Below are positions 6,921-54,703 of a DNA stretch of 64,000 nucleotides, in pieces; position 1 is the stretch's first letter, and every line of letters begins with the position of its first letter. The stretch spans positions 2,616,240 to 2,680,239 of the forward strand of contig FN649743.1 in NCBI GenBank assembly GCA_000310025.1, in the 5' to 3' direction. The notes under the pieces are model-generated. The model was not told where the DNA came from and did not search any database. It saw nothing but the letters and a program-made list of their open reading frames with translations. A program made the position numbers and the translations under genes. The stretch comes from Ectocarpus siliculosus (taxonomy: Eukaryota; Sar; Phaeophyceae; Ectocarpales; Ectocarpaceae).

Positions 6921-9900
6921 CTGCTGTGAGTGCGACTGCGTCGACGCACTTTATACCTGCGGCGTTGCCGATTACGACTGCCTCAACCCTTCCGCGTGTG
7001 GCGGAGGTGAGTTGACCTTGAGGTTGCACCGCTGGTCTACATCGGCATGTTTGCATGTACGCCGCCTATAGCGATGTGGTTCTGACAAGAAGCGTGCAGT
7101 AAGTCAACAATCCTTTCCCCGGTGAACCGGTCGTTCGCCGGTAACAATTTCATGTTCACGTGTGCACATGCTCCCGTGTTTTGCTTCTAGCCGGAGGTGA
7201 CGGCTGTCGAGGGCAAAACTGCCGGATCCGCTGCCGGCGATCAGGCGACATGAGGGTTTTCTCGAAAGGCCGCCTCGTAATCTACGTTTGAACGTTTCAA
7301 TAGTGTAGGACTCCTCCACATGTGTTCGTGGTTGCGGTTAGTTGGTTGGTGTCGTTATTGTTTTGTCGCCGTTGCTGCTTCTTTGCTGTCCGTACTGCGG
7401 TGCTGCCTACATTAAGTGGTGGCCTCTTTTTTCGTTTCGACCAGGCTTTGAACTGCTGTCGGCGCCGAGTTTTCCCTTCCGTTGGGCCACCACACTGACG
7501 AAGTGCCGAAGGTTGACGCAGACTGGAATATCCAGAGAGTACTGGCCGCTTTGGTCTAGACCACTGGGAAGTTGTTCTTCGAAGGCAGTGGATCGTCCGT
7601 TGCGTCCATGCGACACCAACGCACGTTGTTTGCCCTGTTTCATCTGCCCCACCCTCCCCGGCCCATTTTTTTCCCGATGCTGGAATGTGCAAACGATTTT
7701 GTCGCTGCCCCGTTTCCCAAATATATGCAACGAATATGATGCTATGCGCTACGCCAACCCCGACACCGACGCCGACGCCGACGCCAACTCCATCTCCAAC
7801 GGTGAGGAACTCGACATGACACGTTCATGATCTGCGCTGCTTGAGAATGAATCCTCCCACGCCGTTGACTCCTAACGCCGACTTCACACACACCCACACA
7901 GTATTGCTACCGTTTCTGTCTTTGATCCGGAGAATCGATTAGTCTCCCCCATGCCGCCCCCTCACGGGGTCCCAGCTAATGGTATTTAGAATTTTTTTGT
8001 GGTTTCAACCGCACGTAGACTGACGTCTTTTCATTGGTCAAACGGTTAGCGCGGTCGATGCTAACAATAAAAACACACACGCACACGCGTGCCAGCCGCG
8101 GAACGCGAATCGTGAAAGGATTTCCCTTGAGTGTGTCGGCGTCTTGCATGAGTACTCTCGCGTTTCTACCGCGGCAGCCAGGACAGACAAGTAGAGTATA
8201 TTTCTGGCTATCCGAGTGCCGCGCCACCCCACGCCACTGAAGCGTAGATGGTCCCTCATGCCGCGAGCACTGCGGGCAGGGAGTCATGTGTGGGCGATCG
8301 TCCATTCCCAGGGAGAACGGATGGTTGTTGTATTGGTATTTGAGGTAACCGCGTGATGGTTCGTTACCATGGTTATTTCGCGTTGTCAGATGTTTTGTTT
8401 TTTTTTTACCCCATGGCAAGATTCACGAGTTGTTCTGAGTCCCCTCGGTTCAGTGCGCCATTGGGTCTAGTGTTGGAATCTGGGCTGCATGGTGTACGTG
8501 GAATGCAATAGAAAGCTTAAATAGTCAGTAACTAAACGAAGGAAAACATCTGTGGTCGGACTATTCCCGCACATCCCAGGGTAAGAGAGCAAGTCACACT
8601 AAAACCTCATGTCATTCTTCCACCGATCAGGCAGGATCGGATCAACTGTGTCTTTTGGCGAGAGAATGTCTGAGCTGCACTCACTGGTTGGAAACCTCCT
8701 TGACTGGTGGAAATAGCCGTCGTGCTAAGCAGTGGTGACTCGTTGAACGTTCGCGTCCGTCTCGTGCAACGCATGACCTGTAAAGTGGTCTATTGCATTC
8801 ATCCGCTGTTTGCGGCTTTGCCATCGGTAGAAGTAGACTCTCTTGGTATTGCGAGCGGCTAGCCTCCATGCTGCATCAACCTGCAGGGCGCTTGATGACT
8901 TTTTCATGCTGGCGCCGTTCCCTCCCTTTCGTGTGCTTTCTCTCCGACCTTCTGGAAATCATCCGTGGCGGGACTCCGTCCTTTGCCGACGATACCGTCG
9001 ATATTGCCGACTTGAACAGATGAAGACGATGATGATGATGGTGAGCCCCTTTTGCCTTCGTGTGATCAGCGCAGCCCCGTTCAGCTTTGCATCATCGTTG
9101 CGAGACGGGTGTTCTGTGCGCGATTCCCTTTTCATTGGTAGTCGCGGGTTCTGTACGTTTTCCGTGTTGCGCTCTGACTCGATAGCACGGTGGTGTACTA
9201 GTCGTGTGGAGTAGAACTTGCACCGGTTCTGGATTTCGAGGCTTATGGTCTGGATGCTTGTCGCCAAGACTGCCCTTAAACAAAGGCTGTGATCGCGAGT
9301 TCGTTCGTCGAAAACTATTTTTTCCTGTTTTTGCTGGACCTCGTTGAATTTTCCACCCCGACTAGTGGGAGGCTCTTGACCCGGAATTGGGCAGCACGTA
9401 GCATACCCCAGCAGAAACAGAAACACCGGAACGCTCCTTCCTGCTTGGGCTCGTGTCATTAGACCAAAAACAAGCTCTCCCACCCCTATGCGGCGCGTGG
9501 ATCGCAAATCGGATGGTGCCGAAGGGCGTTCTCCTTTCCCCCTTCCGTGACGTGTCCCAGCTGCCTGCGGCAACCTGCGATGGGAATGTCAGGCAATGCC
9601 TCATACGCCATTTGCCGAAAAGCTATCAAGGATGAACTTGGTGATGCGATGGTGTTCCTGAGAAGCCTGGGAACTTTGCAGGAGAAGGAATATCCGCAAG
9701 AGACATTCAAAGGACGCGGAATACTTCCGGAGTTGATTGTCGTCGCACGCGGAGTTGTGCGTAGTTTGGGCTGAGGTCGCCTTTGAAATCAATCAGATTG
9801 TGTTCGATCTACCTTGACTCTGCGAAGCCGCTTGCGACGATGTATGTAATAACCCGTGTCTTCCCACACCCGTGCGGACGGAAGCGAACACCGAAAAAAA

Positions 9901-10391
9901 ACACCTTTCCTTGTCTCTGCCACCCCGCTCTTGAATCATTGGCTGTTTCTGTTACCTAGAACAACCCCCCCCCCCCATCTCTCGCTCGACGTACTATTTT
10001 TTCAGTGCCGGTGGGAGCCATCGTTGGCGGTGTGATCGGCGGGGTATTGTTTTTGGCCGCCGTGATCATCTTGGCGGTCTTGTTCAAGAAAGGTTGCCTG
10101 AAGCCTTGCGCATGCGGCGATTCTTGCGCATGCTGCGAGCCCGGCCCTCCTGCAACTCCTGCTCCTGCTCCTGCCTATGCTCCTGCTGGTGGTGGGTCGG
10201 CGCCGTCAGTTGTCAAGGGGTATCCCGAGGTGTACTCTTCCGCTGCAGTCGCGCAACTTCCCCCCGCTGCGTACGAGGGTCCTGGCAGCGTTCCGGCCCC
10301 CGGAGTCCAAGCGTACCCGGCGGCTGCAGCAACTGCGGCTCCTCCCGCTTACGGGGGCCCAGTGCGCAACCAGTATCCCGCGCCGGCATGA
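6921..10391 (+). CDS. Gene A: cysteine-rich single-pass membrane protein (5' exon not found)
   Basis: Predicted type I membrane protein of unknown function. Supported exons: 6921-7006, 7589-7801 and 10006-10391. Exon 1 carries seven cysteines (CCECDCVDALYTCG and onward). Exon 2 has six more, then an acidic run (DTDADADA). The last exon has a transmembrane helix of about 25 residues starting at VGAIVGGVIGGVLF, a KKGC stop-transfer and a tail rich in Pro, Ala, Tyr and Gly ending NQYPAPA. Phases fit: out 1 to in 1, then out 1 to in 1. A 21-base acidic micro-exon at 9020-9040 would also fit in phase. Exon 2 is also open in a Thr-Pro repeat frame, but that frame does not join the last exon. The signal-peptide exon upstream was not identified. 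The helix is nearly the same as in gene B. Confidence 0.55.
7905..8070 (+). repeat. Dispersed repeat R1, copy 2
   Basis: Shares TTTCTGTCTTTGATCCGGAG, CCCCATGCCGCCCCCTCACG, TTTCAACCGCACGTAGACTG and CATTGGTCAAACGGTTAGCG with the copies at 1040 and 34715. It sits in the intron of gene A before the transmembrane exon and is followed by a CA-rich run. Confidence 0.75.
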
Positions 10392-13300
10392 GTGCAGGCG
10401 GTTGTACGGTCGCGGTGTACGCGAACGTTTCGCCGTCGTATATGTTGTTTATTTTGTGTGACTAGTGTACTTTTCCGAGCAAGCAGCCTCTTGTTAGCCG
10501 CGTGGATGGTGTGTTGCATCGAAATCTGCCTACAAGAGATACGCGTAGCCGCGCGGTTTTCCCGAGTTACTTCATGCTGTGCTGTCGAACATTGAGTGTG
10601 TACGGAGCTTTCGTCATGTGCAATCTCTATTCCCTCTGGACGACATGTCGGCTGGTTTAGACGAGCCAACTATGGTCGACTACTCTGTAGGGTAGCAAAG
10701 GCTCGATAGAGTGTATGTACTCTTCGTTGTTTTTTCGCGGGGTTCATGTCAGCACGTTCACCTTGTCATTTTCTTCCGAAGGATGCAGGATCTCGCCTGC
10801 TACTTTCCTTTGGGCGCGGACTTTGGGTATATCGTCTGTTCAACATCTCATCTTACGGGCATCGGTTATTGTTAACCGGCTCCCGGGGGGGTAGCTTGTG
10901 AGGAATCATTTGGCGAGCATGTTTGTTCATGAACTACGCCATGAGTTCGGCGGCAATACCGCCGTCCACAATCCAAGTTCTCCGAAGGGGGAATGCTTTC
11001 ACGTGCTGCGTACGCCCGAATCGTTGAGCCCCCTATGCGTACAATAGTCTGGAGTATTTGCTGGGGTGAAGGATTCTTCTGCTTGATTTCGTTGGAACGA
11101 TGGCCTGATTCTTGCCAGTTTGTTTCCGTCCTCGTAGGCGCGCGTCAGAATTCAGGTATTCAGAGGTCGTCTGTTTGAATTCCGCCTTGCGTGTTTCTGC
11201 TCAGGGGACACCCCCGCGGACGGAAGATAGATAACGCGCGCACGAGAGCCAGAACATTTGCCCATCATTCGGTGAACGGTCGTCGCATATTGACTCTGTG
11301 TAGATGAGGTACAAAAACCAGTTCGTGTTGACCCGACTATTGGCCGACGAGGCCCGCCGGAAAAGACGGCGAGATCTCTCAAAATAAACGTGTGTCCGCA
11401 CATACTCCGAAATGTATCCACACATACACTACCCACAAATACCCGGTACATACATACGCGTACCACATTGAAAATACGTTTGTAAACTGAGGGAGATTGC
11501 ACGCCCTACGATTAAAAGGGTGCCACACACAAAACGCCCGACCAGTACCTAACACATATCATCTGCACCTTCCTAACATAACATATATGAGACACACAAG
11601 ACAGCTACCAAACTGTCTTGTTGAGCCTGTTACCCGCAGGGGAGATGTCCCTATATGCTGTCTGGGAAATCGTAGACATACAGGTACTTTCTGACGCTAT
11701 GAATCCATTGCTAATCTGTCTCAGACTATTTTCTCTTATAGAGATGGTTTCGTTGTGTCATATTAAGGAAAATAAAAAAAATAAACGGTTGTACTGGTCT
11801 GCCCGACCAGGCCCGACTCCTAATAATTTAAAAAGCACAGGGTGTTTCTATGTGAGGAGGTTTTTTCGTGGGGTTCATTTCCAGCAACTCAACGTAAGCA
11901 TCGGTCGTTCGTGAGTAAACACACTTTGGCTTCAAGGTCGACGAGGGACAGGGATCGCTCTTGCGATAAAAACCACGGCAAAAGTACTGCAGGGGATAGG
12001 TGGGGCACTCGAAACAAATAAAAATGTGAAAAGACTTATCCCAAAAAGAAGCGGATGAGGAGCTGTTCAGCAACGAGGAAACAAAAGCAAAGAGGTTTTC
12101 AGATCACCGGAACGACTGTGCTGTACTGCTGTGGGTGTCTTGGTCTCCCATCTTCTCTGGCGCCATTCAATGTACAGAGTAATTCTAGGACGGTGTGTAA
12201 ACTACATATGGTGTATCAACCGAGGGGTCAACCGTCACCCAAGAGGAGGTCGAACAGAAGACCCAACGAATCCATGTCTATTGAAGAAGAACAACTTTCT
12301 GTCAACGCAACAACGTCCCGTGCGTGTACGGCGCCGTTCTCACAGCGGGACTGTCGAATAGAACCGAAAAGAGTGCAAGTTTTTTTTATCTTCGCCGATG
12401 TATGAGGCGTGAAAACCTGAAGACCTCCCTCGCCACTCGCATCACGTTTCCCTCGACCCAGTCAGATCATCTTATCACTCACACCGGAAAAACAGCAGCA
12501 GTGCACCCTGCGAGAACCACCGTAAGCTGTCCCCTTGGCCCCTGGGTCTCGCAAGTGTTTCATTTGGGCTAATTTTGGCAGAGTGCGGGGGGGTCGGTAC
12601 GTCGGTACGATCACCAGGGGAGACCCAGCAAATCAGCAACTTGCACCGCTCTCGTCTTCTCCGGAGATACAATTGCATTGAACGCTAGCCAACCAGACAG
12701 GCTGACTTGGCGAGGGAAACGGGACCAGCTTTTTCGTATACAGAGAGAGGTGAGCGTGGAGGTCTTGGGGAGCGCAACTACTTCCTGAACGTGTGCAAAG
12801 CAGACAAATATTCATATTCGCACGTATGCAAAGCAGACAAATAGACCGCTTTGCCGACCCTCGGTGATTGGTGATATGGATAGACTACTGCTACTGTACA
12901 GGTACAAACTTCGGCTCGACAAACGAGAGACACACACGTGCATTGGTTCGAATGGAGGCATGGAGGGGTCATTTGTGTGTACTCCGTACAGCAGCTCTGC
13001 AGGCAACTTCTTGGCCGTCGCCAACTCCCCGCACTCCCCTGGCCGCCATCGCATTCTGAGAACTTGCGTCACTGCATGGTGCGGTTCACCCATCCACATG
13101 GAGGCATCTTCAGCGTTACCTCCTCTTGACTCTCAAACCATGGTTGCTACTGGTCTGACAGAGGGCCCGCCAATAAGGCTGATAGAGCGGATAGGCGCCG
13201 GGATTCATTTCCTATCTTCCTATTTAGCCTCGCGTTCAATCACAGCGCCCTTGCAACTTGCGTGCGGCGATTTTCCCATCAAGCAGCGACCAGCTTTTAT

Positions 13301-16440: not shown

Positions 16441-16444
16441 CCAC

Positions 16445-17966
16445 ATGACGACATGCGCGAGCGACAATTTTACCGTCAGTGCGGACGTCAGTTACCCCGG
16501 CGTCGTGAGCCTGAACGGTTGCTATGAGGGTGTGGATGAGTTGAACGGCGAAACCCAGTACTACTTGGATGGCGATGACGACGACGGCCAGCCCTCGGTC
16601 TTTGCTAGTTCGGGCCTTGATCCTTCTGAGGTGGGTGCCGTATCCCTCGTATTCGGAAGCGTGGCGTCACAGTGAGGTTGGGCTCACGTATCAACGGTTC
16701 GGAGGGCCGGGATCGGGGACTGCTGTCTGTGAGCGGCTAATCGTACGTGGCCTCGGTTTCGGCACAGATCTCAGTGCGCCTTTCAGAGAAAGGTATGGTG
16801 GGGAGCGCGGTCGTTATCTCGCGTATTCCCCCGTTCCGGGGCCTTGAGTTTTTCCAAGGAGCCCAGCACTAGAGCCAACAGCAAAATACAACAAATACCC
16901 AACAGGAGGGTTGGGTGGTACTCCAAGCAGTACATACGGCTATGATACTTCGATCCCGCTCCCAAGCTCTCTCGGGGAGTAAGTTGTTTAGATCGAATAA
17001 GTTTACATGGTTTTTCCTTTTTCAGAATGATATATCGCAGCACTGTCTGCTTCAGCATTGCCCTTTCGTCTACACCTCTCCAATGTTAACACTCCTACAG
17101 TAGGTCGTGTTATGTAGTGTGCCGTACAAAGTAGGTGACTTGTCCAAGCCGCGATGAACAGTGCGACCCGCCGGAATTGACAGCTGTGACCCGCTGCCTT
17201 CGTGAACAACGCAGGTCGTCTGGACGTTGGCGTACATCGGGGACAACTACAATTACACGTGCAGAGACGCGGATGAGAACGATGCGACCGCGTTGCTACA
17301 CCCAACGAACGTGGCACAGTGGAATTGCACCGAGGAACTCGGTGTTTCAGACTTCACCGTTCTCGACTCCATGACAGCCACGTGTGGCTGTGGAGAGTCG
17401 ACGACAACGGAAACATCATCTTCTGGAGAGTTGACGACGGAAACATCATCTTCTGAACAAGGTGAGTTCCGTCGCACATGTGTTGGTTGCTTCAGTCCGG
17501 GCAAGGTGGGGACATGTGTCGCTGTACGTGGAAACTTCGGAGCTTTACAAGTTGAAACCTACCCTAGCCTGGACGTCGAAAGAGGGGGCCAGACACCGTG
17601 GTTTGCTGGGTTCCCCTCGTTGCACCACAAGCCTCTTTGCCTTCAATGCTCCTTTGTTTGGCGGTCTCAACTGGTTTCGTAATTCGTGCGAAACAAGATA
17701 CGCCGGTGGGTGCCATCGCTGGAGGGGTGGTGGCGGGCGTACTGGTGATTGTTGCCGTCATCCTGGCCGTCCTTTTCAAGACTGGTCGCCTGAAGTCCTG
17801 CCGCTGGAGCTCTTCCAAAACCTCTGCCGATGACGTCACGCCGGCTCCTCCCCGTTGCCCGGTGCCGGCCGGCAACGCGCGACCTCAGGCCAGTGAAGGC
17901 CCCATTTCTCAGTATCCCCGTCCTCCTCAGTATCCCGTGGCTCACCAGTACCCGCAGGCGTTATGA
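16445..17966 (+). CDS. Gene B: single-pass membrane protein with a beta-rich NG/W ectodomain (5' exon not found)
   Basis: Exons 16445-16630, 17215-17461 and 17698-17966. The frame closes at both junctions (phase 0, then phase 1). The ectodomain reads GVVSLNGCYEGVDELNG at its start and later VVWTLAYIGDNYNYTC and NVAQWNC. This order (NG, second NG, W, Y, W) recalls short beta repeats common in algal and oomycete secreted proteins; that likeness is inference. A linker of repeated TTTETSSS and TTETSSSEQ follows, typical of an O-glycosylated stalk. The last exon has the helix starting PVGAIAGGVVAGVLVIV, then a tail ending in QYP repeats. The helix matches that of gene A almost residue for residue, so the two are paralogues about 7 kb apart. 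The first exon and signal peptide are unresolved; an ATG with a hydrophobic stretch at about 16157 is one candidate. Confidence 0.6.
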
Positions 17967-18381
17967 ATCGAGTTGCAGGTTGTGAAGCGGCGTTGGCCCC
18001 GGAAGCCTTGCTCTGTGGCCTGCGACCTCCTCCAAGCAAGCGTCGCTTGAACAAGAGTAGGCCTGTTGCAGGATTCCCGAGCAGAGACGACTCCGTGCGG
18101 TGCTCGACAATTTGAGTGACTCCAATTTGGGGGGGGGGCTGGTTTGGCCCAGTTGACACCGCCCTTGCCTCTGGGCCGTTTGTTGCCTGTAAGGAGACCA
18201 ACGCAGGGTAAGAATGGAATGTTTTCTTGGGGGCGGTAGCATGTGTTGTCGTTAGGTCGTAAGTGAGAGAAGTGAGAGGCCAAATCGAAGGCATTTTTTG
18301 CGTAGAAACTTGTTGTTCCGCGGGGGCGGCTGAAAACCTGTACTGTTTGATGTATCTCAACTTCCTCTTGGCGACAAAGAA

Positions 18382-18732
18382 GTGGAAGACTTGCTTGCTG
18401 TGGCAGCGTGTTGTATTGCGGGGGCATCAAGCGATTTGTGCAGCTCAAGAAGAGTACAGCTTCGGGAAAGACAGTCGCGTCAGATGTTGAAGGATTTTGA
18501 TGGCCGCATGCGCGATCATGAGGAATATGACGGGGAGGGGGAGTGGTATACTGGTATATTTGTCATCCAGGCGCCTGGTCTGGAACTTGTGGACACCACC
18601 CACACAGTAGCAAGTACTGACGGTGATCTTGCAGACCCAGTCCTAGGCGACTGCGTACACTACGCGCAAAGCGATTTCGTATGGAACGTCGTGTATGAAA
18701 TGTGTGCAAACCGGTCGTTTTCAAACCTCTGA
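18382..18732 (+). CDS. Uncertain ORF, 116 codons
   Basis: The frame is open with acidic, protein-like segments (RMRDHEEYDGEGEWYTG, TVASTDGDLADPVLGD) and ends with TGA after CANRSFSNL. It has no good ATG at the start; the first codon counted is GTG. It lies 0.4 kb downstream of gene B on the same strand. No family is recognised, and it may be chance or a relic. Confidence 0.25.
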   Translation: MEDLLAVAACCIAGASSDLCSSRRVQLRERQSRQMLKDFDGRMRDHEEYDGEGEWYTGIFVIQAPGLELVDTTHTVASTDGDLADPVLGDCVHYAQSDFVWNVVYEMCANRSFSNL

Positions 18733-18739
18733 TCCCGAC

Positions 18740-24000: not shown

Positions 24001-24005
24001 GCGTC

Positions 24006-36935: not shown

Positions 36936-39900
36936 ATCCCGCGGACCCGTTGGTCGGTGTTGGCCGTGTTCGCCGTGTTCGTCAAGACGGCGGTGGCAGC
37001 AGGTGTGCGATTTGCCGTGATGCTAGGAGCTTCGATAGCATGATGGCGATCAATTTACCTTTGAAACGGCCACAGCACATCGTCGGCGATGAGAGGGCTT
37101 TTGAGCCGCGGCTTCTGCGCCGGCAATGAGTTGCTGGACACTTTTGTTTTCTGTCTCTTCTTCGGAGGAAGCACTCGGAATGTTTCATGCTTGTCGTACA
37201 ACTGAAAACCGACTCAGGAAGTAGGCCCTGTCGCCCGCCACCAAAGCGGAAACGCGGCGATATGACTTAACCCTAGAAGACGTTATTCGATGTATTGTAG
37301 AGCAATGCATCCACAAGCAACTCCGAGCCTGCTCTGACTTGGAGGCTGATGAACCTAAAGCAAAGCATGCTGTATGCGTAGGAACACCGGTTCAAATTTG
37401 CGGAATCCGAGAACCTGTTTTGTTGTCGTGTCCTCGTGCGTGCCCCCGAACCATTGCGATTGAAGACTGCTCGGCAAGACCGCTGCAAGAAAGCCGTCAT
37501 AGCACTCTATCGTAGTTTAGACAAATGCTGCCCTGCAACGCGGGGAGCACTTGGCTAGAGCGAAGCAGTGGACTCGATAACGTGGTGCCTGCCACATGTC
37601 CGAGTAGCTGAGCACATTCGTGCCCAGCCGTACGGTTGCAGGGCGGGCACCGGCGCTGAAAAGAGGTATATTTGTCCTTCCACCGCTCGAAGTAGTGGGG
37701 CACACGTATCATACTAGATGTCAAGTCCCGGCGCACGAAATGCGCACGAAATTGCTGAACAAGTCTTCTGTTGTTTTGGCCACGCCTTTTCTCCTAGGGG
37801 TAGACACACCTGGCTGTATGAGGACTACATCTCGTCCTCGTGTCCAACACGTAGTCACCAGTGTTTCGTGATACACCCTGCTTCTCGACGGATCATTCGT
37901 AAAACTTGAGAAAAACAATTTTGGCTTGCCGTTGTGTTTGACTCGTTGTGGAGTCTAGTGTGCTGTTATCGTCAAAAGCTGTGTGTTGTTTGTCTGCGCT
38001 GACCTCTCGTTTTCTAGCTGTTTCCTTTGGCACGGTTCCTTGGTCGTGGGCAGACGTTTCGCGTCTCTTCCCGACGTGTCTTTTTCGAGGGGACGGGCAC
38101 ATGCCTCGTGTCATAGACAAGATACATTCTTCGCGGCAGGGGATGTTCCCTTACCAATGTGTCTTGCAGTGTCTCGTTCCACCCATCTTGTGTCTTCTGG
38201 AGTCTCTGGGTTGTGGCGGCGATCGACGGCGCGTTTTGACCATAGGTCTGCATTTGGAACGATTGCTCGGACACGGAAGCGCTATCGTTTTCGTCAATGT
38301 GGAAAATCCCTCCGTGGCCTGTGGCCGACCCGCAGACCCGCAGAAACGACGGAAGCGACCAAAGCAGGGCGCAATCCATTTTCTGCGTGAAAAAGGTTTT
38401 GCGGTTGGGCGCGATCGCATGCATTTTCCCGCTCAAGAATGACGTAGGTAGTGTTCAGACCAGCATCGACGACACGCTTGCTACCTTGTGCGGACCAGGG
38501 TGCGAGAATTTTGAAGGGACTGCTGGCACCAACACCAACGGCGATGTCCAAGTCTGCTGTGCTTCTGAAACATGTCAAAGTACCTGCGATCAAAACAACT
38601 GCTCTATTCATGAGGATGGCGACAGCTGTTGCCCCGACAGCATTGCCGAGTCGGACACGGAGTGCGGAGTCGACGGCGGTGCTGCACCATGTATCCTTGG
38701 TAAGCGCCCGAGGTAGCTTGTACGCTGTCATGCGAGAGTCGACACCGCTCCACTTGAATTGGACAGTGTACTCCTGAATGTATGCGTGTGCATTGTGCTC
38801 TTAGTCACTTGCAACGTTTCCGAGAGAACAAGTAATCATGGCGTTGGTCGTAGATGTAAAGGTTTTATTGGCAGCTCGCAGAAGCAAGAGCGTGCGTCGT
38901 CAGGCGTGACCTCTTGCTAGAACGTCGTGCTGGTTCTAGACTGCTGTGGGTGTACCGACGTCGTTTTCTTCTCCACCCTGTCCCACTTTGATAATCGATG
39001 CCAGTCGTGACTCTCCAGATGTGCACCCCCCATCACATGCCGCCCCTGCACACCCATCCATAAAGAGATGGTCTTCGGAACTTTTGTGTTTTTTTCTTCC
39101 CGTCACTTTGGGGTGTGACCCACTCTCTAACGTCATTTTGATCGCAACGGTGTTTTTTGGATTAGAGCCAAGGGCTGGTGCTTTTTGGAGAGCTTCAAGC
39201 GTGCGTGCATTCCATTGTAGTTTTTTCCGCCGGAACGCAAGCCATTCGAGGGTGAATGTCCGGGGGAGTGCATTTCCAAACTTGATTTCGCACAAACTAC
39301 CAAGCACACGTTGGTCGGTGTTGGCCGTCCTCACCGTGTTCGTCGTCAAGACGGCGGTGGCTGGTGTGCGATTTTCTGTGCTCATCTCCCGTTGTCCTGC
39401 TTTTGCTTGCACACGTCCTTGGTCGTGGGCCGGCGTTTCGCGTCTCTTCCCTGCGTGTCTTTTTACGGGAAGACGGGCGAATTGTTCGTGGCTAGGGGGA
39501 TGGTCTCTCACCATTAGTGTGCCATGCAGTGTCTCGTTCCACCCACCTTGTGTGTTCTGGATGCTTTGGGCTGTGGCTGCAATCTACGGCGGCGCGTTTT
39601 GACCATAGGTCTGGGTTTGGAACGATTGCTCGGATGCGGAAGCGCTGTCGTTTTGGTCAATGTGGAAAATCCCTCGGTGGCCTGAAAAATGACGAAAGCG
39701 ACCAAAGCAGCGTGCAGTCCATTTTCTGCGTGAAAAATGGTTTGCGGCGGGGCGCGATCGCGCGATCGCATACATGCTCACTTGTGATGCGTTAATCGTT
39801 TCCCGACAAAGATGACGTAGTGTTCAGACCAGCATCGGCGACACTAGTTTTACGGGTTGCCACTTTTGCGGACCAGGGTGCGAGAATGATCACAAAGGGA

Positions 39901-42415
39901 TTACTGGCACCAACACCAACGGCGATGTCCAAGTCTGCTGTGCTAACTCTTGTGGCAACACCTGCGATCAAGACACCTGCTCCACTTATGGGGATGACGA
40001 CAGCTGTTGCCCCGACAGCATTGCCGAGTCGGACACGGAGTGCGGAGTCGACAGCGGTGCTGCCCCGTGTATCCTTGGTAAGTGCCGGAGATAGCTTGTA
40101 CGCTGTCATGCGAGAGTCGCCGCTCCACTTACATTGGACAGCGTACTCCTAAATGTATGCGTGGGCGTTGTGCTCTTAGTCACTTGCAACGTTTCCGAGG
40201 GAGCAGCGACAATGCTGTTGGTCGTAGATGTAATGGTTTTGTTGGCAGCTCGCAGAAGCAAGAACGTGCATCGTCAGGCGTGGCCTCTTGCTAGAACGTC
40301 GTGCTGGTTCTAGACTGCTGTGGGTGTACCGACGTCGTTTTCTTCTCCACCCTGTCCCACTTTGATAATCGATGCCAGTCGTGACTCTCCCCATGCGTAC
40401 CCCCATCACATGCCGCTCCTGTCACGCCCAGCCGTGGAGAGATGGTCTTCGGAACTTTTGTGTTTTTTCTTCCCTCCACTTTGGGGTGTGACCCGCTCTT
40501 TCACGTCGCCTTGATCACAGCGGTGTTTTTTGGATTGGAGCCAAGGGTTGGTGCTTTTTGGGGAGCTTCAAGCGTGCTTGCATTCCACTGTAGCTGCTTT
40601 CGCCGGAACGCAAGCCATTCGAGGGCGAAGGTCCGGGGGAGTGCATTTCCAAACTTGATTTCCGGAACTACCAAGCAGCTAGCGAAGATCCCGGGCCATT
40701 GGAGTCGGACTGTCGTATGAGCACGTTTCCGGCTGCTCACGTGCCTGCAAAACACGGGTGTTTCGGCCGGCTGATTGTCAGGTAACCCAGTCTCCGATTC
40801 CTCCTCGGGTTTCTCGCTCTTGTGTTGTGGCCTATTGCCCCGTCAATGCCTGCTCTCAAACCAACTGAAGAAACAGCTCCCGCGCCTGCCGTATCCGAAC
40901 AAACCGAAGATGATTCGACCGAGGGTGACGACGATACACCAGCTCCCACACCTGCTGAGACCGAAAGCACCGAAGTCGATTTGAGCCAGGAGGCCGACGA
41001 TGACGACTCAAAATCCGCAGAAGGTGAGGGCTAACTGCAAACGGAGAAAAGGGTCGTCCCAACGTTGCCCTGCCGATAGCCCTCACGCGTCTTACAGTCC
41101 TCGCCATGTGCCACTGTCAGGCGAAACCTCTTCCTCGCTGTCCTGTGCAGCCAGCCTAGTTGGCGTCGCGTGACGTTTATGTACTAATTTCTACGACCAC
41201 ATGTACAAATAGCGACGCTGGCGTATGGCTCTCTTGCTCCCTTGTCGTACGCCATTCTTAGGGGAACGGGAAATCGTGCTTGCCTCTCTGGTTTAGTTCG
41301 CGAGAACGCAAGCCATTCGATGGCGAAAGTCCGGGCGTTTGCACTTCCGAACTTAGTCCAATAAATTACCAAGCGACTCAGCGAACGCCTACTTCGACCT
41401 GTCGTGTGTCCTGTGTACGAACCACAAGAACGAGCTCATGCGTCTATCACCGCAGGTGCTTCGGTCAGGTACCACTAACGTTAACTCGACCTCCGATTGC
41501 CTCCTCGCGTTCTCACTTTCTTTCTTTCTTTTTTCTGTCGACCCCATCAACGCCAGCTCCAGCACCAGCTCTCGCAGAACTTGTGTCCACATCGGATTCA
41601 GACGGTAAGGGCCTTCTGACAGGCCGCGAACGGATGAGTGTGGAACCTGGACGTTGCTCCGCCGATGTAGCCCACACGCGTCTTACCGTTCTTGCCGTCT
41701 GCCGCCGCCAGGCATACCTGTGCCTTCGTCGGTGCAGCCAGCCTAGTTGGTGTCGCGGGTTAGATTGTACCAGTGGCAACGCTGGCGTAGTTTTCGCACA
41801 CCGGTCTACGGTGAGGAACGAAGGGAGAGAACCTTCCACCATAGATAAGACAGCAGCTTCCCCCACGGTATTCTCGTCCGGCCAATCTATCTATGACTCC
41901 AGGGCGGCTAGGTTTCAGTGAGCAGGGGTTTGTCTCGCGAGATGAGTTATTTGTCCGGAGATGCACTGTATGGTCCGCGGGTGTATCGTGTCTGGCGCAA
42001 CGTGATGCCTGCAAGCTAGACATTCGAAACTAATTTGGTTCCTGAAACGGCTGTTTGATGCAAACGAATTGGTCTTCTTTCGATAAGGCAGACAAGGAAT
42101 CCCTAGTCTATTCTTCAGGTTAAGGGCGGGGGGGGGTACAGCAGTTGGGAATGTTTCCTGCAAAACGCTTTTTCATGGCAATCCTCCCGCGTTCCTTGCC
42201 CGTGTGCTTGCTCATCTTGTTTCCCCACTCTTGTTCGCGCACCAGGTACGTCATCGGCGGTCATCGCGCTTTCAGTGTTGCTGGCTGCTTTGGTGCTGGG
42301 TAACATAGCTTGCTTCGCATGGTGCCTCATGCGGAGGCGTAAGGAACCCCCGACTCCGCCCCCCGCAGGCCGCCGTGATGCCAACACCGAAGTGGAACTA
42401 GGTCGTCTTCGGTGA
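36936..42415 (+). CDS. Gene C: membrane protein gene with internal exon duplication, start codon apparently lost
   Basis: Exons that join in phase 1: 36936-37002 (signal-peptide-like, RWSVLAVFAVFV), 38448-38699 (cysteine-rich: CGPGCENF, CCASETCQSTC, CCPDSIAESDTECG), about 40871-41023 (Pro/Glu/Thr/Asp linker), 41557-41604 (PAPAPALAEL linker) and 42246-42415 (helix [20 protein letters not shown], then RRRKEPPTPPP and end GRLR). A second copy of the cysteine-rich exon lies at about 39821-40077, but with its matching acceptor it does not keep the phase-1 frame. The first exon aligns with the start of gene D, yet the ATG of D is ATC here and an in-frame TGA lies just upstream. It may use another 5' exon or be decaying. 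The acceptor at 38452 (phase 2) is a possible alternative. Extent is fairly sure; functionality is not. Confidence 0.5.
39297..39364 (+). pseudogene. Duplicate signal-peptide-like exon inside gene C
   Basis: The stretch reads TRWSVLAVLTVFVVKTAV and closely matches the first exon at 36936-37002. It has no ATG in frame. It belongs to the second unit of the tandem duplication and probably is intronic relic sequence, unless it begins a separate transcript with the exon at 39821. Confidence 0.5.
39821..40077 (+). pseudogene. Second copy of the cysteine-rich exon of gene C, out of phase
   Basis: This copy keeps the cysteine pattern (CGPGCEND, CCANSCGNTC, CCPDSIAESDTECG) and the same donor TTG then GTAAGT as copy 1. 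At the acceptor, copy 1 reads GTAGGTAG where this copy reads GTAG. The 4-base difference means that entry in phase 1 would shift the frame. Entry in phase 2 would keep the cysteines in both copies, so function cannot be excluded if the upstream exon ends in phase 2. Confidence 0.5.
41024..41760. repeat. Duplicated linker-exon block of about 0.58 kb
   Basis: Sequence just after the donor at 41023 (GCCGATAGCCCTCACGCGTC, then CAGCCAGCCTAGTTGG) recurs just after the donor at 41604 (GCCGATGTAGCCCACACGCG, then the same CAGCCAGCCTAGTTGG). The two neighbouring linker exons of gene C therefore seem to come from duplication of one exon with its intron. Confidence 0.7.
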
Positions 42416-43345
42416 GAGCCACCATGGAACTGCAGTCGTGTGTTTTGTCCATTGTCGAAACGGGCTACAGTCCCTCACGCGGGCATCCCAGTCAAGAAGT
42501 TTGAGTGTCGGGCGTCGCCAAAGAGTGTCATGTCATCGTAATGTGCCACGCAGAGCCTCTCTCTCAAGAGCAGCACGGAAAAATAACCGTAGAACGGTTT
42601 ACTCGAGGGTATCAGGCTAAAAGTAGGGGGGGTTGGGAGCTTGAGGGCAGGGATAGAGGTGCCATGATAAGTAGCATCCGTATCACTTCTGCCTCTTTGA
42701 CCGCTCAGCGGTGGTGTCCAAAGGCCGTAATGTTCTTCAAGCAGAAAGGGCATGTAGCTCGAGGTCGTTCTGAAAGTGCTTTGGCTGAGATTTTTCGTGG
42801 TGCTGGAAGGTTTTTCTCCGTGCTGCCGCGTATGCAATCGGAGCCTAACTTCTCTTTGTGCAAGGAAGAGAGAGTGGAAATACTTGCGCAACATGTGCTG
42901 CGTTTTTACACAATTTCGTGAAAACCCCTGTGGAGCAATTCAAGAAGCAGGAAGCGGAGGGAGGGAGGGAGGTGAAAGGGGAGATAAAGTCGGGCGTCAA
43001 AGAAAACAACGGTTGAAAAACCCACGGCGGGAAAGTGTCATTCGGGGTGGAATTGCGATTTGTTTTTTATTTCCCCGCATCTTCAAAAAGGAGACTTGCG
43101 GATATTTTCCAACGGCGTTTTCGAGCACCCGTTCTTTCTTGATCGGAACAAACCCGTGGTTGGTATCTACCCGAGTATCGTCGCGGTTGGACCTATTCTT
43201 TGATGGTGGGTGTGAAGCTCTGGGTGGGCACACCTAGACTACGTCATTAGCGTGCCCGTCTGTGATATTTTCGGTCCTCAACAAGTGCTTCGCATGTTGG
43301 TTGACCTTCTCGCTTCGTGCAAACGCGCGGCATCTTGCGCCGCAG

Positions 43346-44526
43346 GAGGGACCTCGAGACTGAGCACACAAGGCGCGTCAAGGCTGAGACCCTGGTGCAT
43401 CGGGCGAAGGGCGGCGGGCTACGCTCTGGCGACTTCCCCAGCGTCCGCGACGTGTATCAGCACGTGTATCAGCTGGCGGACGACGCGCTCGCGTGGACCG
43501 AGAAAGCCTGCGCCGTCGGCGGGTCCCACCCTGCCTTGAACGGGACGGTACTGAGCGTCCTGTACAACACTTTCCTGGTCTGCAGGGAGGAGGTGCAGCG
43601 GTGCTTGGACGAGCGGCTCCAGAACCTGTCGGCGTTCCTGGGCAACGACGAGCCCATCCTGCTGTCGGCGGGCGACGAGATGAACCTGGACACGCAGTAC
43701 GTGCTGTACGAGTGCCTCTGCAAGGACTACCAGAGGATCGTGCCCGCGGACCCGGACCGGATGGACGCGCTGGCTGGGGTCGTCCTTCAGCGCTGCGGGG
43801 AGCCTGCGGACAGGAGCCTCGCCAACGAGATCCTATCTGGCGCCACGTGGCCTTCCTTCGAGGCCCTCATGAAGAACTACTTGCTGGTTTTCGTCGAGGT
43901 GTGTTACAACATTAACACTTGCGTGAAGTTTGTCTTGGGGGTACGAACGACGGCACCCTTGCGTGAGTCGAATACCTCGTAGCGAATACATGGAAGTGAA
44001 TTAAGAATGCTAGTGCACGCTTGCACAGCGTGAACGCACACGTAGATGCGGGTGAATTCGCATGGGTTGGCGATGGCGGATCGAGGGGGCGGCGTGCGTC
44101 ACGAACGAGACGGCCTCCCACTTAGTTGTATGGCCCCTCCCGCCAAGTACGCATCGGATCTGACAACAGGACTGCCGACATCGTAATATCGATGGAGACT
44201 ATGTACTACGTTGGTTCTCCGCATTCCGATCGGCACTAATAAAAAAATGACCGCATTGTGTACATGCAAAACGCCATTAGACACAGCACCAATCGCTCCG
44301 AAATGTCGCGCCCTCCGCACAGATGGCCCTCCAGAAGCCAAGGGTGGAGTTCGAAGACAACTTGGGGGATGCCATGACCTTCGACTCTATCATTCACCGG
44401 GACTGGGCTCCATACTCCAAAGCACCCGCCGGGCAATCGTGTTCCATCGTTTTCCCGGCCATACGTCCTCAAGAGGGCCGGCCGACGTCAAACGCCAAGA
44501 TCGGAGTTGTGCGCCTCCCCGCCTAG
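43346..44526 (+). CDS. Gene E: unrecognised protein with GrpE-like tail (paralogue of F)
   Basis: Exons 43346-43898 and 44323-44526, joined in phase 0 after LLVFVE. The long exon is alpha-helical in character (ALAWTEKACAV, VLYNTFLVCREEVQRCLDER, LLSAGDE, VLYECLCKDY). The last exon of 67 codons has GDAMTFDSIIHRDW, CSIVFPAIRP and AKIGVVRLP. Its order (FDxxxH, hydrophobic strand, final hydrophobic strand) recalls the C-terminal beta domain of GrpE, the nucleotide exchange factor of Hsp70; this is tentative. Gene F has an ATG and a hydrophobic N-terminus upstream of the same AG. The matching stretch here is shifted and contains TGA, so E needs a separate 5' exon or is damaged at its start. Confidence 0.55.
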
Positions 44527-47462: not shown

Positions 47463-47554
47463 TCTAAATTTTCAGGGCTGTCGCGGCAATTTTTCTGCGC
47501 GGTGATGACGGTAATTTGCGAAGGTGTATATATGCATACTGCTGTACGGCTGTA

Positions 47555-49524: not shown

Positions 49525-52500
49525 ATGCTGCGGACGCGATGGGCGACATTTGCCGTGCTCGCCCTGTTCATCATCCGTTCCGGGGAAGGTGTGAATATTG
49601 ACTGTTGTTCTGGGACCCCCAATAGGCGGTTAGCTACTGTAGTTACCTCTGAGGAGTGCACGACGCGTTGTCGGTTATTGCAACCCCGGGATGTTTTTTG
49701 TTTTTGGCGTGTCACTACGATGTGGATGCACCCGAGGGCTTCTGAACCATGCCCTCGGTGCCGACGGTAAGCGGGGAGCGCTGGTGTGAAGTCCTCAAGG
49801 CGTGCAGTTATTTGCTGACACGTGAGGACCAGCCGCATCGGAGTGCCGCCGCATGTTGTTGTTGTTGTGGTGGTTCGTGAGATGTAAAATTGCGTCCAGA
49901 CCCCCATCCGGTACATGTTCCGTACTGTTCCAAGCAAAGAAACGATGTCAACGGCGGCGTCAGGGTGACCCAAGAATTACGTGGTTAGAACATCCGCGCT
50001 ACTTGGTACTCGCGATACTCAGCAAGAACCGTCTGCAGTAAGCCGCAAAAAAGCACCTTTGCTTCCACCAGAGAACAGCGGATACGCCCTTGGCCGATGG
50101 ACGTACGTATGTGGAACGAGACGTTTCGATGGGCTGTTTGGTGGGGCTAAAGCGCAAACGTGGGGCGGTGCCTTTTGCACGCGATTCGTGCTGCTGCTTG
50201 GAGGATTTGGATGTTCCGAAGTTGTGTTTTCTTTCTCGACTTGCGCGCACCGAACAACTGTATCCAAGCGGATGAGAGGTGCACATACGACCGGGAGACG
50301 ACCCGCACCAGAATTTTAATTCCCTTCACGCGAATCGGGGCCGTGGCTCGCTTAGTAGCGACCTGCAATCGTACATGCGTTTTTTCTACTTTCACATCAC
50401 ACGCGACAGCCACTCCGAGCCGACGATGCCGCGATGTAAAAATCCGTCGTTCGACTGCAGCACAGTCCATCCGCCGAGCTGCCTTAGTGCATGGACAACG
50501 GGATTTGTTTTCATGCTGGCGAAGCGATCCGGGGCGAGCCGATTGGCAAACCCCTTTACCTGCATGCCTATACTTGCGCAGTTACCTTTGAATCCGGCTT
50601 TGGAGGCGGATATTTCATATGACCACGTTTGTTTCTCCACTTCCTTCACGTTTTTCGACCGCTAGTGCTTCGACCCGCTGACCCAAGATTAACCCAAACC
50701 TTCGCCTTCCTTCTCGTGCGACCCACCAGCACAAGGGGATCCTCCCGGAGGTGAGGTCTGTCTTCTGCCAGACAGAAAAGGGGGGAAAGGGGGCCGCCAC
50801 CAGCGTTTTCTGAAGCGACAGACCCTTTGCCCACATTGCAGTCTATCAAGCGACTGTCTCGCGAGCGCGTCCGTGCCTAGTTCTTGGAGCACGAAGTCTA
50901 TCAACTCCTAGATTGGAGCACTTTCTTTCATGGGCGTGATTCTCCTCCTCAAGTACCGGCAGGATTCCTTCTGTCGCTGGAAGCCCAGCGCTCAAGGTTC
51001 AGTTGTTGCTTTGACATCGTCGGAGCGTTTCGTTGTGCCTAGAGGTACGGCGCCTGGCGAACGACCCACACGTGTCAGTGCAGCTAATGTAGATTCTCTG
51101 ATCAACTTCGGGCTCTGATGGCGACCGTCGCCTGTTCTTGGTCAAGCACCCGGTGTCGTTTTCGACGTCGCAATCTCCTACCGCAACGGTGCTGGTTGAG
51201 GGCTATCTGTTGTGTGGCTTTCACCTTGAAGAAAATGTGGCTTTCCATCTTGTGCGTAAACGGCTCAGGCGTCCTTGCGGACAGCATCACGGAACAGCGC
51301 AGGGATGTCCTCCCACCTCATGCCGATGCTCCCAGGTCACAACCATGCCGAGCGTACTTTCCGGCAGGCCGCTGCTGTTTTTTCCAGAACGAAGCCCTAC
51401 GCCCGATCCCCACACATCCAGTGAATGCACGGCACGGCAGACGACTAAACCAACGCCCGACCTCCCACCTCGTGTTTGTCTCGCTTGTGTTTTGTCGAAG
51501 CCACCCCTTCAGGGCCTCCCACACCCACGCCCGTTGGCGACTCAGTAGGTCAGAGGGGGGAGCGATAAGGGTTAAGGGGCCTCCTGCCAGGCGGCAAATC
51601 ATGGGAGGAGGCGCCCCCAACGCTGTTGCTCCGCAGAAAAAAAGGAAACGGGTACCTTTGGTGCCGTCGTTGTGGTCTGTCCCCGTCAAGCAACAGTTCC
51701 GCGGGCGCCTCCTTACCTCTTTCGTGTCGCTCCGAGGTCTACGCCCTAACATTGGGCACCACCTAGCAGAAATATTTGACGCAAGTAGCATGCGTTTTTC
51801 CTCCCTGTACTTGGTAGAGACCACCGGGTGCAGGAAGGACAGCCCCCGCCCCACGACGCTACAACGGTTCCCGGCATTTAATGTTCGAAGCTTGGTGTTC
51901 AGCGGGGGGGGGGGGTAAGCTCTGTCTTTGGCAGAAGGTTAACTACACTACATTTTTTTGTTGTCAACGAGAGGTTTTCGTAATGATAACCGTCGACGGA
52001 GAAGCTGTTCAAGGGAAGACGGGGCCGGGGGGCGGCTAAAGCATCGGCGGTCTCCGACGAGAGGACTCGCGAACGCTCGCTCTAACGCCCTGCTGCTGCA
52101 GTAGCCCCACCAGATCTCCTGTTCGCACCTTTGCAACCGCACTCGTGCCTTTACCAGCTGAACCCATCGCCCCTTCTCCTCCTTTCGCTATGTTTTTCCA
52201 GGACCACTGCCTACACTATTGCCAACGGTGACTACGTCAGCACCAATGGGTACGCCAGCACCAATGCGTACGCCAGGACCAATGCGTACGCCAGGACCAA
52301 TGCGTACGCCAGGACCAATGCCTACGCCAGGACCAATGCCTACGCCAGGACCAATGCCTACGCCAGGACCAATGCCTACGCCAGGACCAATGCCTACGCC
52401 AGGACCAGTGCCTACGCCAGGACCAATGCCTACGCCAGGACCAATGCCTACGCCAGGACCAATGCCTACGCCAGGACCAATGCCTACGCCAGGACCAAAG

Positions 52501-54703
52501 GTGCCGCCTACGCCTGCCCCAACGCCTACGCAAGAACCCGCGGTGCTGAGTACGGATGACACTTCGGACAATGGCGGCAGCAGCACCACCAACGATGACC
52601 AGGCCAGTACCGACCGGGACATCACGAACGAAGGCGACGACGACGGAGCGGTGGTTGCCGCAAGTGACGCCTCCGACTCAGAATGTAAGTGCCTCACGGC
52701 CTCGCGCCACATAGACGCAACATACCCACCCAAGGAGACGCCTCTCGAATGCACCTCCGCCGACGAGCTGCTGTATGGGCACCTTGCCGTCGTTACGTCT
52801 GCCGCTGTCTTTGCAGTCGCTCCGTGGGCTCACCGTTCTATTAACTGGCACCGTTGTGAAGGGTCTGAGTTCCGTTGGTTCACCTAGCCCCGGGGCTCAA
52901 TATTGGCATAGGTTGTAAAAACACACACTGCCATTTTCCTGGCGAGAAAGGCAAACGGCCTGGAACGCGAGTTGCACAGTACAGGCGGATTTTTTCGATG
53001 CCATGTTTACATCCTGAAATCGATTGCCCCCCCCCCCCCCCCCCCCCCCCCGTTATGNNNNNNNNNNNNNNNNNNNNNNNNNNNNNNNNNNNNNNNNNNN
53101 NNNNNNNNNNNNNNNNNNNNNNNNNNNNNNNNNNNNNNNNNNNNNNNNNNNNNNNNNGGACGGGATTTCCCCGGACCGGGGGGTTTTTTTGGGCCCCATT
53201 TTTACCCCCCAAAAGGGTTTCCCCCCCCCCCCCCCCCCCCCCCCGGTGTATGTGACCGGGGTTGGGTTTTCGTCGCTTGGCAACGACGTTGAAAAACAAG
53301 CCGATCGCTTTGTGAGCTCGACAACCAGGTTACCGCTTTTTTTTTGTTATATTTTTTTTGCGGTAATCCTAATGGTGGTGGAGTAGATTGTGTTGTGCGG
53401 GGTCGAGAACCCTCACGCCGCACAGGGGATGATCGCACCACGTTGTGTTAAAATTGCCAAGCTCCCTCGAGGCAGTTTCACGGTGCTTAAAACTCTGAAA
53501 GTAGAAGCACCAGAATATATATTAAGTCGTTCGCAGCTGTCATCCATTGCAAGGAGGCAAACACATTCTGCCACACACCCTTAGCACGATGCAGCGCACT
53601 CTCCATGCGACTCGCCGAACACCTCACGGCGCTTCGCGCTTGGTGATGTGAGAGCCTGGTCCGGTGAGAACCCGGCGTGCTCCGTCCCGGCTTTGTAGGG
53701 ATGCGAGGTCAATGGCCAAACGACTACGGCAAGCACGACTTTGAGTACACCCCCCCCCCCCCAGTGTATTCTCGATGGAAACAAGCCGATGTGTATATAT
53801 ATTGCAAGATCTCGACAACCCCATGCGAAAGCGGTTTGCGGTGCATCCATTTTACATCTTCATCTTCAGGCATGGTCACGCAACGTGCGCCGCACGCGCA
53901 GCGCGAGATTGGAAGCTGGGCTGTCCATGCGGACGGGAGAGTGCACAGGGCACTCATCCCAAGGCCTAGGCTCTCAGACCCGTCGTCGCTGGCAGTTTCC
54001 TTGTGCCGACCGCTTTTTTGGCCCAGAGGACTAGAACGCCCGCACACCCCGTCCCCACCAATGATTGTCGCCGTAGCATATTTCGTGTGGGATACAACCA
54101 AGCAACGCTGCCACTTTTTTTCCTCAGGCTGCGTAGCACCCCAACTGAAAGTTGGCAACATGACGACGGGGGGGAAACACCTCAACATGGCTCAACGGAA
54201 GCCCCGTTACTTTAGACACTTTCCCGCGAAGCTGTCTTCTGTCCACAGGTCGGATACAGCTCGGCAGGGGCTCTAAGGCTGTGCCGCGCGTTGAGCAAGT
54301 GCAAGGTTGTCCAGACGTGGGATATGCGCATGTTGATGGTACCGGGGTTTGCGCTCAAAGTCCGCACGCGACCGTTATCTCGTACACAAAACTCGTGGGT
54401 CTTTTGACGCTTCTGAAGGAGAAACCATCTGTTTTACAGGGCTGGGGTTTTTAAAACGCGAGAATCCCTGCTGCAAGAGCGTGCATTCGCTTAACTGCCC
54501 GGCGGGCTCTTTTTCCCCAACTCTTGTTTCTCACACCAGCTTCCACGACTGGAGTCGTCGCGCTCTCGGTCATCCTGGCTGCTTTGGTGCTGGGAAATGC
54601 AGTTTGGCTCGCGTGTTGCCTCCGCAGGCGCAAACCTCCTCCGACTCCGCCCGCGGGCGGCCATGGCGCCACTGAAGACGTCGAGGTGGGCCGCCTTCGG
54701 TGA
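49525..54703 (+). CDS. Gene D: membrane protein with hexapeptide-repeat stalk (paralogue of C)
   Basis: Predicted type I membrane protein. Exon 49525-49766 starts at an ATG with a signal peptide ([15 protein letters not shown]) followed by a cysteine-rich segment (CCSGTP, EECTTRC, CPRC) and ends in phase 2. Exon 52202-52684 has 14 hexapeptide repeats of the MPTPGP type, then an acidic Thr/Asp region. Exon 54540-54703 has the helix [20 protein letters not shown], the basic stop [13 protein letters not shown] and end GRLR. The last two exons join in phase 1. The phase-2 end of exon 1 means that at least one exon between 49767 and 52201 has not been found. The stalk is probably extended and O-glycosylated. 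The stop TGA lies in a CTTCGGTGAGT context that could also serve as a splice donor. Confidence 0.6.
51118..51918 (+). CDS. Long uncertain ORF inside the gene D intron region, 266 codons
   Basis: An ATG-started frame stays open for 266 codons ([15 protein letters not shown] at the start, ending in a poly-Gly run coded by a G homopolymer). The same stretch is open for 136 codons in another plus frame and 178 codons on the minus strand, so the openness may reflect low stop frequency in GC-rich DNA. Gene D lacks an exon between 49767 and 52201 and part of this stretch could hold it, but no phase-consistent exon with the family's cysteine pattern was found. Confidence 0.2.
   Translation: MATVACSWSSTRCRFRRRNLLPQRCWLRAICCVAFTLKKMWLSILCVNGSGVLADSITEQRRDVLPPHADAPRSQPCRAYFPAGRCCFFQNEALRPIPTHPVNARHGRRLNQRPTSHLVFVSLVFCRSHPFRASHTHARWRLSRSEGGAIRVKGPPARRQIMGGGAPNAVAPQKKRKRVPLVPSLWSVPVKQQFRGRLLTSFVSLRGLRPNIGHHLAEIFDASSMRFSSLYLVETTGCRKDSPRPTTLQRFPAFNVRSLVFSGGGG
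52246..52497. repeat. 18-base coding minisatellite, 14 units
   Basis: The unit ATGCCTACGCCAGGACCA codes Met-Pro-Thr-Pro-Gly-Pro. By translation the units are one MGTPAP, three MRTPGP, five MPTPGP, one VPTPGP and four more MPTPGP. Near-perfect copies point to recent expansion. The repeat length is a multiple of three, so length changes keep the frame of gene D. Long ORFs on the opposite strand here are artefacts of the repeat. Confidence 0.95.
53058..53157. other. Assembly gap of 100 N
   Basis: A run of exactly 100 N, the conventional size for a gap of unknown length. It lies beside long C homopolymers (53028-53051 and 53220-53244), so the sequence next to it is also doubtful. It falls in the intron between the repeat exon and the last exon of gene D. 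Confidence 0.98.
53215..53765 (-). repeat. Repeat R2, copy 2, opposite orientation
   Basis: Reverse complement of the 27.0-27.5 kb copy: TGTTGTGCGGGGTCGAGAAC, then GTTCTCACCGGACC inverted, and TAGGGATGCGAGGTCAATGG near 53697. It is bounded by long C homopolymers on both sides, and the left one abuts the assembly gap. Short heads of the same element occur near 36000 and 59450. Confidence 0.75.

Follow-up and report, generated by a model that had tools for sequence, protein, structure and literature searches.

Brown algae became multicellular independently of animals and plants, and how their cells pass information to one another is largely unknown. Four genes for putative membrane proteins in Ectocarpus siliculosus, here designated A to D, raise the question of whether they represent a single group of modular surface proteins. 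A sequence-only reading had proposed exactly this, placing all four in one family between positions 6921 and 54703 of the window (the whole 64,000-nucleotide stretch of DNA that was analyzed, C18:2616240-2680239). On the basis of searches of the genome (189.5 Mb in 492 contigs), the four genes turn out, as far as sequence can tell, to be two unrelated pairs, A/B and C/D, and the idea of a single four-gene cluster has to be corrected. In the interpretation that we favor, A and B are part of a family of single-pass membrane proteins that is scattered over the genome and defined by a common last exon, with C and D as a separate tandem pair; taken as a whole, we consider this interpretation about as likely to be right as wrong. 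The gene models comprise the following features (window coordinates, all on the forward strand).

6410..6446 (+), A, LNR-like exon (DYNTEECDWDGGD), phase 1 in and 2 out, AG/GT ends; 37- or 39-nt equivalents in other copies
6921..7006 (+), A, second half of the LNR-like module (CCECDC...YDCLNPSAC), phase 2 in and 1 out
9020..9040 (+), A, possible acidic mini-exon (DEDDDD), tentative, phase 1-1, AG/GT ends; similar position in a 6-copy DNA alignment
10006..10391 (+), A, helix-tail exon ending ...NQYPAPA, phase-1 start
16445..16630 (+), B, N-terminal half of the ectodomain, first codon ATG, phase 0 out
17215..17461 (+), B, second half of the ectodomain and Ser/Thr stalk, phase 0 in and 1 out
17698..17966 (+), B, helix-tail exon ending ...HQYPQAL, phase-1 start
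36936..37002 (+), C, signal-peptide-like exon, first codon ATC (ATG in D), phase 1 out
38448..38699 (+), C, exon for the cysteine-rich domain, phase 1-1
39306..40273 (+), C, second, inner copy of the signal and cysteine exons (83% and 77% DNA identity)
40871..41023 (+), C, exon for an acidic Pro/Thr stalk, phase 1-1
41557..41604 (+), C, second stalk exon, phase 1-1
42246..42415 (+), C, helix-tail exon ending GRLR, phase-1 start
49525..49588 (+), D, signal-peptide exon, phase 1 out
50730..50750 (+), D, short exon rich in proline, phase 1-1
51513..51548 (+), D, short Pro/Thr exon, phase 1-1
52202..52684 (+), D, exon for the stalk, containing an 18-bp tandem repeat (repeat unit, MPTPGP), phase 1-1
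54540..54703 (+), D, helix-tail exon ending GRLR, phase-1 start

All introns within the models of B, C, and D, whose splice ends were taken from the DNA sequence, are bounded by GT and AG. The model of A consists of four exons and has an incomplete 5' part. Its ectodomain includes an additional exon at 6410 to 6446, upstream of 6921, that had previously been overlooked; spliced to the next exon, it completes CDWDGGDCCECDC (CDWDGGD joined to CCECDC). Helix and tail of A are encoded together by one 386-nt exon that closes with a stop codon. When spliced, the three exons of B form one open frame of 233 codons, and D is open from ATG to stop; spliced C is a single open frame as well, but its first codon is ATC. 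Several candidates for further parts of A were discarded: the acceptor of a TP-repeat stretch (at approximately 7778 to 7798), considered as a stalk, could not be settled; exon calling by a codon-position scan against two near copies was too noisy; and a search for a signal exon by likeness to the copy L013 gave only an 11-base match at 3830, where no signal peptide is encoded.

Much of the proposed anatomy stands. The four helix-tail exons lie where they had been placed, ending at 10391 (A), 17966 (B), 42415 (C), and 54703 (D), and each begins in phase 1 behind an AG; A and B have the helix start PVGAI(V/A)GGV and a YP-bearing tail in common, and C and D share a helix start of the form ALSV(L/I) and a GRLR-stop end. 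An ectodomain on exons of its own is present in A, B, and C; in D, no cysteine-rich exon was found, and the outer part is Pro/Thr-rich only. Similarly, a uniform phase-1 exon pattern applies to C and D, in whose models every intron is in phase 1, but not to A, with a phase 2 intron inside the LNR-like module, or to B, with a phase 0 intron inside the ectodomain.

What fails is the claim that the four genes form one family. The notion of a single modular receptor family that diverged by exon exchange draws on a common layout of outer exons, a low-complexity stalk (in B, C, and D) and a phase-1 helix-tail exon, as well as on the occurrence of signal-peptide-like exons in both groups; beyond this layout, no likeness between A/B and C/D was detected in tail searches, helix profile, or signal-exon profile. 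With the tail of B as the query, neither C nor D was found at an E value of ≤0.01, and at the same threshold the tail of D, searched against 189 Mb, returned D and C only; a profile of the A/B helix missed C and D at an E value of ≤1. As for signal peptides, D has, by reading, a signal-peptide-like start with an ATG, none was found for A or B (a signal exon of A was not found), and three loci, L025, L013, and L005 (the last without an ATG), as well as L020, which lies upstream of L006, contain signal-like exons able to end in phase 1. Among seven signal-like exons compared, six contain an RW motif (CW in L013), and a phase-1 end is, by reading, possible in all seven. However, a profile of four signal exons of the LNR family retrieved the second copy in C with an E value of 6.4 only, and D was absent among the 22 matches listed; since C and D were not significantly found in this way, signal exons do not unite them with A and B. 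Additionally, C and D have a duplication of their own (see below). The one-family view is thus largely refuted, and we would be very surprised if it were correct: layout by itself misled, and C and D, as a separate tandem duplicate, are to be treated apart from A and B.

Further genomic copies with the same plan exist for the A/B type, whose tail exon (helix plus tail) was located at 20 genomic sites, including those of A and B; for the C/D tail, there are none at an E value of ≤0.01. Sixteen of the A/B-type places, A and B included, were found genome-wide at an E value of ≤0.01 with the B tail as the query, and a pattern search added one (C18:2706991). The tail of L011, a near relative of that of A, gave 21 matches at an E value of ≤0.1, three of which are further members (C18:3003600, C69:28520, and C12:2474923, the last with an internal stop). 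Five weak matches (C3:4951261, two on C17, and one each on C16 and C26; E values of 0.015 to 0.034, query positions 9 to 65) were left uncounted. We read 19 copies, namely, A, B, and 17 fetched loci, leaving out C12:2474923, and counted tail features on the 17 intact ones, dropping L013 (broken tail frame), L014 (partial), and C12:2474923 (stop). In every intact copy, the nearest AG gives a phase-1 start of the tail exon, and [QR][YF]P lies near the C terminus, with the Y or F 5 to 7 residues from the end, even though helix and tail together range from 74 to 195 residues. A, B, and 15 further intact copies thus combine a phase-1 last exon, a helix, and a C-terminal [QR][YF]P; as the copies are related, this agreement does not amount to 17 independent events. 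This last exon encodes a helix, which mostly opens with a PVGAI-like sequence, then basic residues next to the membrane, in many copies FKTGRLK, and a tail of variable sequence that closes with the QYP-type motif. In the helix and tail of A, no Pfam domain scored over the cutoff, and no EGF-like exon was recognized in A, the 5' part of which is incomplete. YPxxL occurs at the C-terminal motif in 5 of 17 tails, and PPxY is present in 8 of 17, so that neither explains all copies; both resemble motifs bound by ESCRT- and ubiquitin-ligase-type adaptors.

Two ectodomains, at least, stand in front of the shared last exon: a cysteine module of LNR-like type (A and seven others) and the domain first seen in B (B and four others). 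The anchor-and-tail exon thus links LNR-like proteins to a second, as yet unnamed ectodomain. When profiles were run against the open frames of the 19 copies read, 8 had LNR-like modules (A, L005, L010, L011, L013, L015, L024, and L025), 5 had the B domain before the tail (B, L002, L003, L008, and L009), and 6 had neither (L001, L004, L006, L007, L012, and L014, inspected over approximately 5 kb upstream and, for all but L012, approximately 12 kb). These profiles were built from few copies, and seed loci match by construction; A, L024, L025, and, for the B domain, L009 were not seeds.

The LNR-like exons are of two types, one of 39 nt in phase 1-1 (six modules of five loci) and one of 37 nt, running from phase 1 to phase 2 (A and L013). 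The following exon makes up the difference between 37 and 39 nt, which is good evidence that the LNR exons are spliced; in L011, an AG is absent before the first of them. The core that they encode, C-x-[YWF]-D-G-G-D-C, is the calcium-site core of LNR and reads CDWDGGDC in A (after splicing) and CGYDGGDC in L005, with similar forms in others. Complete LNR repeats have six cysteines in approximately 36 residues. Their first half was found in L005 only (YPDC...GTGIC), where the joined repeat has fewer cysteines, and was not found in A. In a comparison with the Pfam model PF00066 (cutoff, 21.2 bits), in which the validly joined rows were the two modules of L005 and that of A, A gave no match, and the best copy, the second L005 module, reached 16.8 bits (E value of 0.0091), which is under the cutoff. 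Across the genome, PF00066 gave 30 matches, 25 of them over the cutoff and none at A-type tail loci. A profile of the module matched only two PDB entries at an E value of ≤10, both weakly: the LNR of Notch1 (0.47) and GlcNAc-1-phosphotransferase (2.4). Away from the tail-exon loci, PF00066 matches, mostly over the cutoff, form clusters at C11:871950-872606, C11:2488601-2523465, C351:8773-10047, and C17:5652637-5686940.

The B domain spans approximately 120 residues, with 16 invariant columns in a 5-row alignment, and had no useful match in Pfam or NCBIfam; a profile search against the PDB gave two weak matches of phage tail type (E values of 0.77 and 0.79), which we took as chance. It may be a divergent relative of an uncharacterized "NGxYE...W" domain of protists. 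The domain is present twice in the L018/L009 region and precedes other helices in L016, where domain and helix share an open frame, and, with less certainty, in L017, where the helix is in a separate downstream frame. In B and in six further copies in which the domain comes first (seven of seven), an ATG stands directly at the domain start, and reading revealed no consistent acceptor there; an internal copy in L009 lacks this ATG. The ATG may accordingly be the start codon, in which case B would have no signal peptide. Profile scans of viral contigs returned 16 pattern stretches for the B domain and 23 for the LNR module, among which no relatives were confirmed. A literature search, with most subscription papers outside its scope, yielded no paper on the shared tail or the B domain, neither of which has a name. 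Just downstream of B, positions 18334 to 18732 contain an open frame, the end of which is acidic and includes cysteine (EYDGEGEWYTGIFVIQAPGLEL...).

A tree of 17 tails places six LNR tails together with L012, with support of 93/89 (below the 95/80 mark of the tool), and on the other side the five B-domain tails, among which the LNR copy L005 and four copies without a recognized ectodomain are also grouped; L006 sits on a long branch. The LNR label requires three changes on this tree, two of which are forced by well-supported branches, and the B-domain label behaves in the same way. Shuffled labels did equally well in 15 of 500 cases (LNR) and 37 of 500 cases (B domain). Few joinings are thus needed, and with one tail found on two ectodomains, exon exchange in the A/B family is supported in a weak form, that of few events. 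Diversification by positive selection was not seen in the LNR exons, which are short stretches. For these exons, dN/dS was 0.13 to 0.74 in six pairs of L010 type, 0.51 between the L005 repeats, and 0.32 to 0.82 in three pairs of A type (second exon only), i.e., below 1 in 10 of 10 pairs (range, 0.13 to 0.82); given the short stretches and the pairwise values, a few selected sites could be present. In the helix region, two of three A-type pairs were below 1 and the third, which includes the broken L013, was at 1.36; among 10 pairs of L010 type, seven were below 1, two were at 1.05 and 1.16, and one had a dS of zero.

PMC11378527 and PMC8307928 deal with exon shuffling and surface proteins in brown algae, and the LRR-ROCO and other shuffled-exon genes in the former resemble the present ones in having one module per symmetric exon and in exon shuffling. 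They differ in that LRR-ROCO genes have 72-bp phase-2 LRR exons with positively selected sites, whereas here phase-1 exons are combined with a helix for the membrane, and omega did not exceed 1 in the LNR exons. This precedent (PMC11378527), together with the modular exons, the multiple dispersed copies, and helix-region dN/dS values above 1 in 3 of 12 measurable pairs (1.05, 1.16, and 1.36), might suggest a fast-diversifying repertoire of immune receptors. That reading is weakened by the LNR-exon values and by a tail tree sorted mostly by ectodomain type, according to which exchange was rare. Nor did the loci that we read contain alternative ectodomain exons arranged in arrays; we give this reading very little credence. 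Equally little speaks for the view that these are partly decaying copies or misread exons without protein products. C does have an ATC in place of the ATG of its signal exon and an inner duplicate that is out of phase by reading, and among the dispersed copies L013 has a broken tail frame, L014 is partial, L011 lacks an AG, and the signal-like exon of L005 lacks an ATG, but B and D are complete open frames, the LNR exons show a purifying pattern, and the tail ends are fixed in 17 of 17 copies.

How, then, might the proteins work? The Pro/Thr or Ser/Thr stalks that B, C, D, and some of the remaining copies possess, the very short C/D tails, and the 18-bp repeat of D would all suit pure wall-to-membrane tethers of a mucin- or glycoprotein-like kind, without signaling. 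However, a QYP-type end is kept in all 17 intact A/B-type tails while the rest is variable, which suggests a cytosolic partner, and we consider mere tethering unlikely, if not negligibly so. A more specific alternative is offered by animal Notch, which consists of EGF repeats, three LNRs with a heterodimerization domain, and ankyrin repeats. Like metazoan Notch, A has an LNR-type core outside a single helix, but none of these other Notch features (EGF repeats, a set of three LNRs, heterodimerization domain, ankyrin repeats) was recognized in A, with its incomplete 5' part. Were the LNR members Notch-like, the LNR would shield a cleavage site and regulated proteolysis would free the tail; core and helix do occur in one gene, and Le Bail et al. 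in 2011 reportedly found LNR membrane proteins to be reduced in the etoile mutant of Ectocarpus. According to PMC3879662, moreover, the gamete transcripts of Ectocarpus include Presenilin and Nicastrin. Yet the tails are short, those of A and B are without a Pfam domain over the cutoff, five members carry the unrelated B domain instead, and A shows neither the first half of a canonical LNR nor any known cleavage site, all of which makes release of the tail by proteolysis quite improbable. The same source (PMC3879662) reports Notch-domain genes in Ectocarpus and cites one etoile-linked LNR gene, so the epithet "undescribed" fits the A/B genes in part only; the accessible text of PMC4333798 and PMC4299406, both of which cite Le Bail et al. 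(2011), contains reference lines or nothing on Notch. The etoile-linked LNR proteins, of which Esi0061_0098 is one, share the LNR-type core CxYDGGDC with the A type, but A-type LNRs are under the Pfam cutoff and their tail exon is shared with proteins in which an LNR was not found.

In the interpretation that we prefer, that of a dispersed family defined by its last exon, A/B proteins would cross the membrane once, with the QYP end in the cytosol. The outer domain might bind ligands of the wall or cell surface, and the QYP fixed at the C terminus could dock an adaptor in the cytosol by which the protein is placed or removed; we infer such an adaptor from the conservation of one short motif. 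A bolder version, in which the QYP exon acts inside the cell as the mobile "plug" of a system for cell-to-cell communication that evolved independently in this lineage and the LNR and B ectodomains are alternative inputs to one adaptor, strikes us as a long shot. If it were true, a single pathway would unite proteins of the etoile-reduced kind with a domain family that as yet has no name. For a test, the 17 intact tail exons now provide a defined gene set, and the C-terminal QYP provides a defined motif.

C and D have a history of their own. A Blastn comparison of the two halves of their region gave five colinear matches at offsets of 12.29 to 12.59 kb, comprising the signal exon, the tail exon, an open frame downstream of these, and, beyond that frame, another two stretches. 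The downstream frame (43275 to 43906 versus 55622 to 56252) is 87% identical at the DNA level, with open reading frames of 225 and 224 amino acids, and had no Pfam match at an E value of ≤1. Since these matches are colinear at approximately 12.3 kb, C and D are the products of a tandem duplication of about that size that included the neighboring downstream gene. Their layout consists of a signal exon, a cysteine module (in C), a Pro/Thr stalk, and a helix, all in phase 1, and the proteins might be stalk-dominated surface proteins that span the wall; the 18-bp repeat of D runs to 14.8 units.

Within C, a further duplication relates 37990-38899 to 39372-40273 (77% identity, with 83% for the signal exon; the query ended at 38899), and the cysteine frame of the inner duplicate is, by reading, unfit for a phase-1 acceptor. 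As a full query, the cysteine exon found itself and the inner copy only at an E value of ≤0.1, and a shorter query gave 12 further places with E values of 0.04 to 6.8. Aligned with copies on contigs C207, C229, and C4, it shows 14 invariant columns in six rows, 10 of which are cysteines. To judge from this alignment, the domain is a divergent copy of a module (CC..CG.C..C..CC..C..APC) that is present elsewhere in the genome; it differs from those copies in that C has one in-phase divergent module and a seemingly out-of-phase duplicate, with a stalk, helix, and tail of its own. Searches with Pfam (C and the module copies) and NCBIfam (one module copy and the L005 LNR) gave no useful match, and the PDB gave none for the C domain at an E value of ≤10. 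An AlphaFold2 model of the C cysteine domain, made from a two-row alignment, had a mean pLDDT of 42 and was discarded.

Some observations on neighboring sequence may be added. On C207 (28500-37500, L026), the cysteine modules form an array of separate open frames, three of which are nearly identical and spaced at approximately 1.3 kb. On C229 (L027, 2450-4000), a frame of more than 500 amino acids, extending to the end of the fetched piece, has tandem HYPD/NYAC and PYVCRW units and lies beside two cysteine modules. The last intron of D contains 100 N at 53058 to 53157, next to poly-C stretches, which represent an assembly gap or a withheld stretch, and, at approximately 53250 to 53770, a translated match of up to 92 to 94% to stretches of L003 and L007 that is probably a dispersed repeat.
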